The notes under the pieces are model-generated. The model was not told the DNA's origin and ran no database searches. It saw only the letters and a list, made by a program, of their open reading frames with translations. 10,907 nt of DNA from Lachnospiraceae bacterium (GTDB lineage: Bacteria > Bacillota_A > Clostridia > Lachnospirales > Lachnospiraceae): NCBI GenBank assembly GCA_024689605.1, contig JAILDD010000253.1, positions 1 through 10,907 on the forward strand, given 5' to 3'. The position numbers were made by a program, and so were the translations under genes. Shown piece by piece: positions 5,162-9,868 of this stretch (the stretch's first letter is position 1; each line of letters begins with the position of its first letter).

Positions 5162-6421
5162 TCAGATCTCCTTCCTGTATTTCCATGCCAGAAGAAAAAT
5201 CTGCATGTCTTCAATAAAGTATCTGTGAAAGAGCCTGCCGGGCTCCTGTAAAAATCTGTAAAACCACTCCAGTCCGCATTTGCGCATCCATACCGGTGCC
5301 CGGAGGCTTTTCTCTGCAGCAAAATCCACCGCCGCTCCGAAGGGAAGGGCCACATGGAACTCCAGCTCATCCTTATTTGAATAAATAAATTTCTCCTGCT
5401 TGGGCATGCCCAGACATACAAAGATAATGTCAGGCTTTGACCTGTTTACGGCTTTAATGGCTTTTTTAAGTTCTTTCTCATCCTTGTCAAAATCCATAGG
5501 CGGTTCGTAATACCCGCAGATATTCAGGCCTTTGAACTTTTCTCTCATTTTTTGAGAAGCAGACTCTGCACTGCCGCCGGTACCTCCAAGGATAAAGACT
5601 GACTTTCCCTTTTCCGCAGCCCTTTTACAGATTTCCGGAAACATATCAGCTCCCGTCACCCTTTCCTTTATGGGGTGGCCCAGGGATTCAGCAATCCATA
5701 AAAGGGGCGTTCCGTCGGTGATAACCAGGTCTGCATCCTTATATATTTTCAGAAACTCTTCATCCTTCTGAAGACGCATCACATGATCCGCATTGGGAGT
5801 GACCACATAATGCCTGCCCTCTTCCGCAAATTCCATTATGCGCTCCGCAGCCTCATCAAAGCTTACATCATCCAGCTCAAAGTTCATGTATTTTCTGCGG
5901 CCATGCTCTGTATCTTCTTTTTTGCGCTTAGCTGAAAGTTTAAGCCTTATATCGCCGCATATCTGCCAGACAAGGGTGGCGATCATTATACCTGCCATAT
6001 CAATGGCAAAATCCTTTATCTCGCCATAACGCCCCGGCACAAAAATCTGCACAAACTCATCAGTCAGTGATACACAGACTCCTATGGCACAGATATAAAA
6101 AACACGCAGTTTCTCCCTGAAGCCGTTTACCGTAACGGTAACTCCCAGAAGAAGTCCCAGTACGATATACTCATTCATATGGGCAAAAGTGCGTGTTATC
6201 TCATCAAATCTTTTCAGACCCACGTCTGTTACCGGAATCTGCTCCACCGTCTCCGTCCCGAAGATCATCCCCAGGATCCAGCTGGTAACATGAAGGCTGG
6301 TATTCTCCGAACCCTCTCCCGGCTGCAGTGAAAAAATAAAAATCACCACTATCCAGATAACTACCGGAATCCAGACAATATACTCTATGACAGAGGATTT
6401 TTTAGACGGAGCATTTTTCAT
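5162..6421 (-). CDS. VanZ-like membrane domain fused to WecG/TagA/CpsF (GT26) glycosyltransferase
   Basis: A 419-residue two-domain protein. Residues 1 to about 158 form a VanZ-like membrane domain: hydrophobic helices at about 12-31, 82-100, 104-120 and 138-155, the FSLQPGEGSE loop, the HMNEYIVLG segment and the signature DEFVQIFVPGRYGEIKDF. After a basic linker (KRKKED, 165-170), residues about 178-419 form a complete WecG/TagA/CpsF domain: TPNADHV at 208-214, ITDGTPLLW at 234-242 with Asp236 at the family's catalytic aspartate position, GADMFPEI, FILGG, VCLGMPKQEKF at 335-345 and the LEWFYRFLQEPGRL tail. TagA-family enzymes transfer a sugar (ManNAc type in known cases) to the lipid-linked first sugar. 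The fusion would tether this normally peripheral enzyme to the membrane. The start has a weak ribosome site 20 bases after the UXS stop. The frame is continuous, so I see no sign of two separate genes. Confidence 0.9.
   Translation of the reverse strand: MKNAPSKKSSVIEYIVWIPVVIWIVVIFIFSLQPGEGSENTSLHVTSWILGMIFGTETVEQIPVTDVGLKRFDEITRTFAHMNEYIVLGLLLGVTVTVNGFREKLRVFYICAIGVCVSLTDEFVQIFVPGRYGEIKDFAIDMAGIMIATLVWQICGDIRLKLSAKRKKEDTEHGRRKYMNFELDDVSFDEAAERIMEFAEEGRHYVVTPNADHVMRLQKDEEFLKIYKDADLVITDGTPLLWIAESLGHPIKERVTGADMFPEICKRAAEKGKSVFILGGTGGSAESASQKMREKFKGLNICGYYEPPMDFDKDEKELKKAIKAVNRSKPDIIFVCLGMPKQEKFIYSNKDELEFHVALPFGAAVDFAAEKSLRAPVWMRKCGLEWFYRFLQEPGRLFHRYFIEDMQIFLLAWKYRKEI
5168..5173 (-). promoter_or_regulatory. 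Shine-Dalgarno site fixing the GT4 start at 5159
   Basis: The minus strand reads AAGGAG, 8 bases before the ATG at 5159-5157. The site lies inside the last codons of the VanZ-TagA gene, whose TGA ends at 5162. It supports 5159 over the upstream in-frame ATG at 5186, which would place the start before this site and inside the neighbour. Confidence 0.8.
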
Positions 6422-6441: not shown

Positions 6442-7377
6442 TTACACAAACTGCCTGAAATATTCAATAGTCTTATCCAGTCCCTTATCAAGGGGAATAG
6501 TGGGCTCCCAGTCGAGCTCCTTCTTTGCCAGATCGATAACCGGTCTGCGCTGTATGGGATCATCCGAAGGAAGGGGCTTATACACGATCTTTGAGTCAGA
6601 CCCTGTCTTTTCAAGAACCATCTCAGCCAGCTCCTTAATGGTAAACTCACCGGGATTACCGATATTGACAGGGCCGGTGAAACCGTCTCTTGAATTCATC
6701 AACCTTACCATACCCTCGATAAGATCATCCACATAGCAGAAACTCCTGGTCTGTGAGCCGTCGCCATATACCGTTATATCTTCACCTCTGAGGGCCTGCA
6801 TTATAAAATTGGAAACCACCCTTCCGTCAGCAGGATGCATGTTGGGGCCGTAGGTGTTAAAAATCCTCATCACTTTGATATCCACATTGTTCATTCTGTG
6901 ATAATCAAAGAAAAGAGTCTCAGCCACACGCTTGCCCTCGTCATAGCAGGACCTGATACCTATGGTATTTACGCAGCCCCTGTAGCTTTCAGGCTGGGGA
7001 TGTACCTCGGGATCGCCGTATACCTCAGATGTGGAAGCCTGCAGTATCCTTGCGTGAACCCTCTTTGCCAGTCCCAGCATATTCATGGCACCGAGCACGG
7101 AGGTCTTGGTAGTCTTTATAGGATTATACTGGTAATGAACCGGGCTGGCAGGGCAGGCCAGGTTGTATATCTGATCCACTTCAATAACGATAGGGACGGT
7201 GACGTCGTGTCTTATGAATTCAAAATAGGGATTGCCGATGAGATGCCTGATATTGTCCTTGGTGCCCGTGAAAAGATTATCAAGGCAGATAACATCGTTG
7301 CCTTCCTCTATCAGCCTGTTGCATAAGTGCGAACCCAGAAATCCTGCACCACCTGTCACCAATATTCTCTTACCCAT
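6442..7377 (-). CDS. UDP-glucuronate decarboxylase (UDP-xylose synthase)
   Basis: A 311-residue short-chain dehydrogenase/reductase of the UXS group (EC 4.1.1.35), which converts UDP-glucuronate to UDP-xylose with tightly bound NAD+. The NAD-binding glycine motif [10 protein letters not shown] is at 8-17. The UXS-specific signature [12 protein letters not shown] is at 72-83. Catalytic residues visible are STSEVYG at 115-121 (Glu118 is the UXS catalytic glutamate position) and the YxxxK pair Tyr145/Lys149 in [24 protein letters not shown] and [12 protein letters not shown] follow as in the family. Length matches bacterial soluble UXS with no membrane anchor. AAGGAG at 7385-7390 lies 7 bases before the ATG. 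It follows the folded element at 7419-7680 and precedes VanZ-TagA by 20 bases. It implies xylose, or a pentose derived from it, in the polymer. UDP-glucose dehydrogenase, which supplies its substrate, is not in this window. Confidence 0.96.
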
Positions 7378-7384
7378 AGTATTT

Positions 7385-7390
7385 CTCCTT
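7385..7390 (-). promoter_or_regulatory. Shine-Dalgarno site of the UDP-xylose synthase gene
   Basis: The minus strand reads AAGGAG, 7 bases from the ATG at 7377-7375. It lies in a short AT-rich stretch (7378-7418) between the start codon and the folded element. That stretch also holds a TTTACA on the minus strand, but no correctly spaced -10 follows it before the ribosome site. Confidence 0.85.
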
Positions 7391-7418
7391 ATTATCTAAT
7401 TAATTTAGTTGTAAACCC

Positions 7419-7680
7419 AAACTTCCCACCTATAGTCTGTGGAAAGCAGAACGACGACTCGCATATGCGCCGGAACCGATGCAACGCCTCGGGAAACTAA
7501 CCGCTAACAGCCCGTAGTTATCCGTCACATGCAAGCCGGCAAAAAGCGTACCGTCTTGCAGCCCTGCACCGGATAACAACGGGCTGTAAGCGCTGGATTT
7601 CCCCTCGGCTAAGGACGCATCGTGATTGTTCCGGTGCAATTGCGAGTGTCGTTCTGGCTAGTTCAGTGAGTGGGAAGTTT
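7419..7680. repeat. 262-bp folded inverted-repeat element; candidate structured RNA or MITE-like element
   Basis: This fills nearly all of the only gene-free stretch of about 300 bases. The ends are perfect 11-bp inverted repeats: AAACTTCCCAC at 7419-7429 and GTGGGAAGTTT at 7670-7680. Nested stems continue inward: 7447-7455/7648-7656, 7457-7463/7641-7647 (one bulged base), 7466-7476/7628-7638 (one G-T pair), 7477-7482/7617-7622, 7486-7488/7607-7609, 7491-7496/7598-7603, 7502-7504/7590-7592, 7508-7515/7579-7586, 7517-7523/7571-7577 and 7530-7535/7555-7560. That is about 77 pairs, with symmetric internal loops such as TAA/TAA at 7505-7507 and 7587-7589. Hand count of 7501-7620 gives 71 of 120 G+C, against 18 of 60 for 7381-7440. 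No U-tract follows, so it is not a simple terminator. No target duplication or encoded protein is evident. Alternatives are an omega/HEARO-type RNA remnant, a MITE, or an RNA-processing hairpin. Identity is unresolved and the strand unknown. Confidence 0.85.
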
Positions 7681-8531
7681 TATATTCCAAAAACTATCCT
7701 CACATACGGTGTCACTGAGTGATATATCGCTGACAGTACACCGTAGTTCTTTTTCACGAAATAATACCAATCTTTTGCAGGCAGTCCCTTGGGAGTTTCT
7801 TTTTTCATTACACGCTCAAATATGGGGAGCTCGGGGTCCTGCCAGCTGTCCTCTATGGGATTGGCTTCGCAGGTGCCCACATAGCCGGCACTGCTTATTA
7901 CCTTGAGGCCTTTGCGCTTCATACGGAGGCCGTAGTCGTAGTCTCCCATACTGTGGGTATAGTGTCCGTCAAGGTTTCCGTTTTTCTTCATGCATTCCAG
8001 AGACATCAGCAGGCAGTTGCAGTTGAAGGTATCGCAGAGCACAGGTTTATTTGCAGGCGGGATCACTTCGAACCTTGCAAAGAATTTCGATAAGGTCCTT
8101 ACGCCTCCGTAGGTCTGCTCCCCGGTTTCGGAACAGACTGCGCCTACGACTGCATTCGCCCTGTAGCGCTTCCTTCTCTTCATCAGGGTATCAATGGAAT
8201 CCTCGAAAAATACCACATCATCATTTACCAGCAGTATGTCATCACCGGGCTTTGCATGCTTGGCTGCATAGGACATGGCATAACGCATGCCCTGATTCCA
8301 GTAAACATTTTTTTTGCAGTGAAGTATCTTAAGACTGATGTCACGATTGCCGTAGCGCCTGCTCTTTTGGGCATTATCCATGCACTTTCTTAAATATATA
8401 CCGGTACCGTCAATGCTTCCGGCATCCACATCCACTACTGTCACGGGACCTTTATAAGCTCCTAACAGTGACTTAAAACAATCCACTGTCTGCTCTCTTC
8501 TGTTGTAGGTAGTCATTAAAACCCAAAGCAT
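7680..8531 (-). CDS. Family 2 glycosyltransferase (rhamnosyltransferase-like GT-A)
   Basis: A 283-residue inverting GT-A glycosyltransferase. The N-terminal strand and loop LMTTYNRREQTVDCF is at 5-19, followed by VVDVDAGSIDGTG at 32-44, the usual nucleotide-contact segment. WNQGMRYAMSYA (78-89) precedes the metal-binding LVNDDVVFF at 101-109 (NDD in the DxD place). CNCLLMS and SMGDYDYGLRMKRKGLK at 194-210 form the acceptor-side region seen in rhamnosyltransferase-type GT2 proteins. There are no membrane helices. An AGGGGG ribosome site at 8539-8544 lies 7 bases before the ATG. It is the last gene before the folded element, and its TAA stop (7682-7680) shares its final base with the element's terminal repeat. 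The C-terminus may therefore have been altered by the element's arrival. The sugar donor is not known. Confidence 0.92.
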   Translation of the reverse strand: MLWVLMTTYNRREQTVDCFKSLLGAYKGPVTVVDVDAGSIDGTGIYLRKCMDNAQKSRRYGNRDISLKILHCKKNVYWNQGMRYAMSYAAKHAKPGDDILLVNDDVVFFEDSIDTLMKRRKRYRANAVVGAVCSETGEQTYGGVRTLSKFFARFEVIPPANKPVLCDTFNCNCLLMSLECMKKNGNLDGHYTHSMGDYDYGLRMKRKGLKVISSAGYVGTCEANPIEDSWQDPELPIFERVMKKETPKGLPAKDWYYFVKKNYGVLSAIYHSVTPYVRIVFGI

Positions 8532-9394: not shown

Positions 9395-9868
9395 TTACGC
9401 ATTCCTCTCGCCTGATATGAGCCTTGCAAGCTCCCTTACCACGCCATAGCCGCCGTTCTTTCCGGATACCCAGTCGGCAATCTCAAGTATCTCAGGCTCA
9501 GCATCCTTCGGTGCACCCTTTATACCTACGCATCCCATGGCTTCTATATCATTTAAGTCATTACCGATATACATGACTTTATCCAGTCCCACGGCCTTTT
9601 CGGCACAATATTTTTCCAGGGTCTCCTTTTTGTCAGACACCCCGTGTATCACTTCAATCTTTAGCTTTTCAGCACGCATCTCAACCACAGGATTCACTTC
9701 TGTGGACAGGATCACCTGCTCAATGCCCAGCTTCCTTATCATGCCCACGCCGTAGCCGTCACCCCGGTTAGCCATGACACTCTCATTCCCGTTCTGGTCC
9801 ACCAGGACACGGTTGTCAGTCATAACGCCGTCAAAATCATATACTATCAGTTCTATATTTTCAAACAT
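9395..9868 (-). CDS. KdsC-type HAD sugar-phosphate phosphatase
   Basis: A 157-residue C0-type HAD phosphatase of the KdsC group, which works as a cytoplasmic tetramer and removes phosphate from 8- or 9-carbon keto-sugar acids. Motif I is YDFDGVMTDN at 10-19 with nucleophile Asp11 and acid/base Asp13. Motif II is VILSTEVNPVVEMRAEKL at 52-69. Lys80 in GVSDKK is motif III. IGNDLNDIEAM at 101-111 is motif IV. The C-terminal glycine loop KNGGYGVVRELARLI (137-151) is the tail that closes the neighbour's active site in KdsC. The STEVNPV form of motif II differs from the TGRxS of true KdsC and recalls the HAD domain fused to CMP-acylneuraminate synthetases. I therefore favour a nonulosonate 9-phosphate or related substrate over Kdo 8-phosphate. 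No synthase or CMP-transferase partner is in the window. GGGGGA at 9878-9883 is its ribosome site. Confidence 0.88.
   Translation of the reverse strand: MFENIELIVYDFDGVMTDNRVLVDQNGNESVMANRGDGYGVGMIRKLGIEQVILSTEVNPVVEMRAEKLKIEVIHGVSDKKETLEKYCAEKAVGLDKVMYIGNDLNDIEAMGCVGIKGAPKDAEPEILEIADWVSGKNGGYGVVRELARLISGERNA

Follow-up and report, generated by a model that had tools for sequence, protein, structure and literature searches.

The window analysed here, a stretch of 10,907 nucleotides from a Lachnospiraceae bacterium, carries a minus-strand operon in which a GT2-family glycosyltransferase gene is followed by a gene for an NAD-dependent epimerase/dehydratase. Between the two lies an element that forms a single long hairpin (Table 1), and the last A of the glycosyltransferase TAA stop codon is also the right end of this element. 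An earlier, sequence-only reading of this DNA, from which alone the name UDP-xylose synthase for the epimerase derives, placed the hairpin between a glycosyltransferase block and a UDP-xylose synthase block; glycosyltransferase-family genes are found on both sides, so the division is not a clean one. Elsewhere in the window, a single ORF (5162-6421, minus strand) comprises a VanZ-like domain and a WecG/TagA/CpsF glycosyltransferase domain, and a HAD-family hydrolase (PF08282) is encoded within the operon at 9395-9868 (minus strand).

Table 1. Features of the hairpin element and of the adjoining genes in the window
Feature	Position	Strand	Basis or remark
Whole long-hairpin element	7419..7680	+ (forward orientation of the family; antisense to the operon)	Fold and match to model R1
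5' terminal arm AAACTTCCCAC, perfect 11-bp terminal repeat	7419..7429	+	Sequence
3' terminal arm GTGGGAAGTTT, perfect 11-bp terminal repeat	7670..7680	+	Sequence
Outer stem, 5' arm CAGAACGACGACTCGC	7447..7462	+	
Outer stem, 3' arm GCGAGTGTCGTTCTG	7642..7656	+	
Conserved core, full-length match to model R1 (51.3 bits)	7467..7633	+	
GATGC-AAC-GCC, helix and 5' side of conserved loop A	7478..7488	+	
TCGGC-TAAGGAC-GC, 3' side of loop A	7605..7618	+	
AACTAACCGCTAACAG, 5' sides of loops B (CTAA) and C (TAAC)	7495..7510	+	
GTAAGCGCTGGATTT, 3' sides of loops C (GTAA) and B (TGGAT)	7586..7600	+	
GT2-family glycosyltransferase gene	7680..8531	-	PF00535; stop codon adjoins the element
NAD-dependent epimerase/dehydratase gene, next in the operon	6442..7377	-	PF01370/PF16363

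The minimum free energy (MFE) of the element is -133.2 kcal/mol on the plus strand (z -10.87) and -141.7 kcal/mol on the minus strand (z -12.80), with none of 200 shuffled sequences folding as well on either strand. The near-complete self-complementarity described in the sequence-only reading was thus borne out, as were the perfect 11-bp terminal inverted repeats and a G+C content (0.542) above that of the remaining window (0.449). The nested pairing is likewise real, but the earlier count of about 77 base pairs was too low, the MFE folds containing 97 (plus) and 96 (minus). In agreement with the absence of a usable ORF, the sole open frame inside the element encodes 69 amino acids from a TTG start on the minus strand. 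Neither a target duplication nor a poly-T tract could be seen by eye at the window copy, as had also been stated, and its plus-strand flank reads TATATT.

The same gene order occurs in L001, from a Lachnospiraceae metagenome-assembled genome, where the proteins share 51, 55, 43, 86 and 48 % identity with those of the window, the highest value being that of the epimerase. The gap between the glycosyltransferase and epimerase genes is 26 nt in L001 versus 302 nt in the window, and the genome of L001 (G001) yielded zero matches to the family models described below. Absence of the element at this matching junction is consistent with its having inserted at the stop codon in the window's lineage. 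As the L001 proteins are only 43-86 % identical, the short junction could instead reflect a loss in L001. The L001 homologue of the VanZ-WecG/TagA/CpsF protein aligns across residues 31-419, so that the fusion seems common to both, while the HAD-family hydrolase gene had no tblastn match at 1e-10 in L001.

Relatives of the hairpin and their covariation

Searches by sequence similarity recovered few relatives. BlastN of the window element and of a copy from genome G401 against plasmids and phages gave no match, and the element aligned only in chance-level pieces within a set of 80 loci. Three of eight genomes gave matches at E<=1, none of which lay in a family-like hairpin once folded. Across 397 genomes of the family to which G001 belongs, weak matches at E<=0.01 were found in four, of which only those in G401 fold as long hairpins. 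In these hairpins the 5' arm contains GCAACGCC and the 3' arm TCGGCTAAGGACGC, at the places corresponding to those in the window, and the G401 locus comprises three tandem hairpins followed by a fourth. Among the five genomes of the G401 genus, three contain 28, 22 and 1 BlastN matches, respectively, counts that include some hairpins on both strands, and the copies form a mosaic of common modules. A self-complementary stretch scoring at least 60 was present in 32/40 fetched loci, with that of L155 representing a different repeat. The exact loop A pattern occurred in G401 only among 299 genomes. In viral contigs it was found in 25 stretches, which were then folded, and two further patterns gave 2 and 0 stretches; the second family model (R2, below) matched none of these 27 viral loci, nor L001 or L002.

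Nineteen cores from three relatives' genomes (G401, G110 and G405) were aligned with MAFFT, excluding the window, and compensatory changes were observed in 22 of the 28 predicted pairs. The covariance model built from these cores (R1) matches the window at 7477-7630 with filters off (42.7 bits; E 1e-8, the E-values of R1 and R2 being rough), with the next match in the window at 10.4 bits; the window core with loops A, B and C is recognised by a model trained without the window. Two unrelated long hairpins in the searched loci (L133:2262-2427 and L142:531-694), which serve as natural decoys, were not matched by R1 even at E<=10. A search of 98 sources with R1 yielded 110 matches at E<=0.01. Five were dropped (three duplicate places and two partial matches), leaving 105 copies for the analysis of anatomy and placement. 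In an alignment of 107 distinct rows, two-sided changes occur at all 28 modelled core pairs and 91.9 % of the cells pair, with 676 two-sided cells compared to a shuffled mean of 187. The covariation score was 0.582, versus 0.186 when shuffled and at most 0.083 with the partner slid. This alignment was fitted to R1 and so leans towards its structure, which is not the case for the alignment of nineteen cores. The window hairpin is thus a divergent, distant member of a family in which the base-paired shape is preserved while the sequence changes; among the cores of seven relatives, those of G786 (60 % identity) and G284 (54-59 %) are nearest to that of the window over 165 columns. The sequence-only reading had named a lack of homologous copies and covariation as the outcome that would speak against a mobile element or functional RNA, and that outcome is absent, since homologues exist and covary.

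Distribution, anatomy and placement at gene ends

Matches to R1 at E<=0.01 were found in 20/299 genomes of the family of G001. A further model (R2), built from the 110 R1 matches with the window included, gave 234 matches in 24 of 29 chosen genomes, with the copy number reaching 50 in G401, 43 in G110, 36 in G405, 23 in G034 and 14 in G305. R2 also matched both genomes in the genus of G284 and 2/391 genomes of the class (G068 and G268, both drawn earlier as same-family members), while none of 36 genomes from other groups was matched at E<=0.01. The large searches scored no more than 8 or 11 candidates per genome and applied stricter filters, so weak carriers may be missed. With the genomes taken as Lachnospiraceae on the basis of the title of L001 and their taxonomic grouping, the family has so far been seen in Lachnospiraceae only, where it is patchy among species.

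A typical copy, read forward, has GGAC, an outer stem of mostly ~30 bp and, after the stem, TG..TTGG; a 3'-side bulge, several helices with loops between them and a variable head make up the remainder. The internal loops are asymmetric and conserved, namely A (AAC/TAAGGAC), B (CTAA/TGGAT) and C (TAA on both strands). The median element length is 185 bp (65 copies), and core length varied between 131 and 140 in 30 delineated copies. The foot could be located in 67/105 copies, using a search pattern that favoured AC and TG and leaving out the other 38, and reads exactly GGAC in 56 of the 67. Two false internal feet were dropped before measurement of the outer arms. In the resulting 65 copies, the arms of the outer 20 bp are 95.7 % complementary within a copy (35/65 being perfect), although the mean pairwise identity of the outer 20 nt between copies is only 33 %; the 5' arms are purine-rich (0.60). 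The GGAC and TG..TTGG foot was not found at the window copy, which does not belong to the 67; in place of the foot, the 11-bp repeat forms an additional terminal helix beyond the outer stem.

A 119-bp hairpin at L142:951-1069 is paired nearly throughout and looks like a copy from which the head has been deleted so that both arms are now complements; R1 matches it weakly at L142:974-1050 (21.9 bits). In the upstream flanks of L189 and L205, the start of the element recurs in tandem, together with the flank, just before the element, possibly as traces of slippage or repeated insertion. The two decoy hairpins, together with L155:769-934, represent a second, unrelated palindromic repeat of 164-166 bp in G110, with ends like CTAGAGCGTGTCTGAAAAA / TTTTTCAGACACGCTCTAG. 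In L155 this repeat is flanked by the two arms (640 and 989) of a gene-end family copy, as if inserted into it. Around positions 2535-2635 of L232, G110 has ~100 bp with similar ends that G401 lacks at the aligned position, a difference that resembles a filled versus an empty site of this second repeat.

No ORF of 70 amino acids or more runs across any of the 105 elements. Gene ends were counted for 104 copies, the window included, from open frames of at least 100 codons and without a gene finder. A sense stop codon lies on the 5' side of 87/104 copies, within 50 nt in 50 of the 87 (median 37 nt), while an antisense stop codon lies on the 3' side of 88 copies, within 50 nt in 14 of these, the window among them (median 226 nt). 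Where both are present, the stop on the 5' side is the nearer in 55/74 copies (p 3e-5). The window copy has the minority orientation, its 3' side adjoining an antisense stop, and does not follow the tendency towards a sense stop on the 5' side. Adjacent copies less than 800 bp apart, among 150 of the 234 R2 matches, include 12 convergent, 2 tandem and 0 divergent pairs. No function was enriched among the flanking genes, with no more than three of the 147 flanking proteins scanned (of at least 178) per Pfam, among the 25 commonest of 202 Pfams.

The evidence as to which strand is transcribed conflicts. Gene-end orientation points to a forward transcript, as does a T-rich edge; in most relatives the sense strand at gene ends is the counterpart of the window plus strand. 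Nucleotides 3-8 after the stem contain on average 3.17 T of 6 on the forward strand versus a background of 1.92 (p 6e-6), and 2.06 versus 1.86 (p 0.32) on the other strand. This 3' edge is weak for an intrinsic terminator. The T run is interrupted, with a consensus near TGTGTATTGG. Folding energy and mismatches, however, point to the reverse strand or to none. The reverse strand, antisense to the gene end, folds better in 70/76 copies, and A-C exceed G-T mismatches on the forward strand in the outer stems (22 versus 11; p 0.08, not significant) and inside (60 versus 22; p 3e-5), the latter being mixed with the conserved loops. Conserved mismatches in these loops may explain part of the energy difference. 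In the window, the G-T pair 7469/7635 had been taken as the single one and as a hint of a plus-strand RNA, but it is one of three G-U pairs on the plus strand, with five on the minus strand, and the argument thus fails. Should function reside in the forward strand, the copy in the window, being antisense to its operon, is a minority case.

Possible function and spread of the family

The explanation we favour, and consider rather more probable than its competitors, is that these elements constitute a new family of dispersed intergenic gene-end hairpins, with a divergent copy in the window, that would act at the RNA level and spread as a non-autonomous repeat. Both the RNA-level role and the spread are favoured by analogy with the ERIC and Correia hairpins, which alter transcript levels. 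The long stem-loop, in the 3' regions of mRNAs, would end, protect or, via RNase III, cut transcripts. The window copy has the rarer orientation and lies inside an operon, whose mRNA would thus contain the minus-strand hairpin; this hairpin would be expected to be read through and cut, or to lower downstream expression, rather than to terminate transcription. The proposal of a structured RNA or a processing hairpin in the sequence-only reading gains support from the covariation and the placement at gene ends, with processing itself being putative. A more elaborate version is offered tentatively, whereby some Lachnospiraceae lineages employ the freely diverging but shape-conserved hairpin at gene ends, mainly in the sense direction, as a device whose conserved loop modules are read by a putative loop-binding factor; the same fold would enable spread, and convergent partners could each carry a copy.

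The family could alternatively be a purely selfish DNA element without host function, recognised as a folded single strand in a REP/RAYT-like or group-IIC-intron-like manner by a mobilising enzyme that needs the hairpin. Group IIC introns prefer gene ends. This reading is possible but doubtful. It accommodates the multiple copies and patchy occurrence among species, the absence at the related operon junction of L001, the structure kept while the outer sequence is free, and the biased orientation, but no dedicated transposase was found. Y1 transposases (PF01797), the one transposase family considered, occur in 9/12 carriers and 7/12 non-carriers and are thus unlinked to the hairpins, and none of the 25 commonest Pfams among the flanking proteins is a transposase. 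Nor was a filled and empty pair of sites found between close relatives, where one internally deleted copy and one rearranged region were observed. In the former the element is complete in G110, while only its outer 32 and 13 nt remain in G401, which is best explained by an internal deletion rather than an empty site. The MITE-like origin suggested in the earlier reading holds in so far as homologues are dispersed, multi-copy, intergenic and absent from the related operon, but a target duplication was not seen by eye at the window copy, no mobilising gene emerged from the family considered, and terminal inverted repeats common to the copies, as in a classical MITE, were not found among the 65 copies with their divergent outer arms.

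Less probable still is a multi-copy structured RNA that acts in trans or binds protein, with functional internal loops and a gene-end placement that results from avoidance of promoters and coding regions. The conserved asymmetric loops, the two-sided covariation throughout the modelled core, the narrow range of core length and the absence of enriched functions among the commonest flanking Pfams speak for it, whereas the orientation bias, and for a trans-acting RNA the unusual presence of up to 50 copies per genome with differing outer stems, speak against it. Long structured non-coding DNA of this kind also led to the earlier suggestion of an orphan HEARO/omega RNA, or could belong to another Rfam class, which we regard as very improbable. 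No Rfam model, HEARO (RF02033) included, matched the window at the gathering cut-off, and at E<=1 the only match within 7350-7750 was mir-708 (19.9 bits against a cut-off of 71). Eight relatives' loci gave nine matches at E<=0.1, all to microRNA models below cut-off, and a HEARO/omega identity is refuted at the Rfam sensitivity used. A local inverted duplication or assembly fold-back confined to one genome, as the nearly full self-complementarity might suggest, is similarly improbable, being refuted by the R1 match in the window, the homologues with the same loops in other genomes and their covariation.

The gene-end hairpin family is unusual in that base pairing survives an almost complete turnover of the outer-stem sequence, which suggests that the internal loops are the probable functional part. 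The family represents a large natural alignment for testing events at bacterial transcript ends, and many currently unannotated intergenic regions could be labelled with the covariance model (234 matches in 24 genomes).

Comparison with known dispersed repeats

Enterobacteria, Neisseria and pneumococci are among the bacteria with known dispersed palindromic repeats. No description of the present hairpin family, or of dispersed palindromic repeats in Lachnospiraceae, was found in the open-licence literature. The family may be present, unnamed, among the 3,161 human-microbiome candidate RNAs reported in PMC8040213.

According to PMC2229807, the ERIC/IRU and YPAL/RU-2 repeats of enterobacteria are dispersed elements of ~100-200 bp whose transcripts fold into long stem-loops; both ERIC and YPAL have target duplications, and ERIC also has TA ends. 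PMC10969869 adds that transcript levels are affected where ERIC has inserted at the 3' end of genes in Yersinia, and that ERIC and Correia hairpins alter transcript levels via RNase E or RNase III. By description, rather than by sequence, the family here is similarly dispersed, of similar size and a long stem-loop. It occurs in another lineage, TA ends and target duplications were not seen at the window copy, and its outer stems are only 33 % alike (65 copies), conservation residing in the internal loops. The Correia/NEMIS elements of Neisseria are described in the same sources as non-autonomous hairpin repeats with transcripts cut by RNase III (PMC10969869), and with 24-bp terminal repeats, TA ends and a target duplication (PMC2229807). 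These features were not seen here, and cutting of the present hairpins by RNase III is putative.

The CGTC-tagged REPs, according to PMC3733652, are palindromes with stems of 8-9 bp that lie mostly downstream of coding regions, without a dedicated transposase. The foot of the present family would read CGTCC on the reverse strand, from GGAC followed by G in 56/67 located feet, a resemblance that may be due to chance. Such REPs are palindromes of 20-40 bp with an unpaired CGTC tag, to which the far larger hairpins described here do not conform. Finally, the family resembles intrinsic (rho-independent) terminators in that a strong stem lies close behind a gene and precedes a T-enriched stretch, but differs from them in its length of ~185 nt, its conserved internal loops and its interrupted T run.
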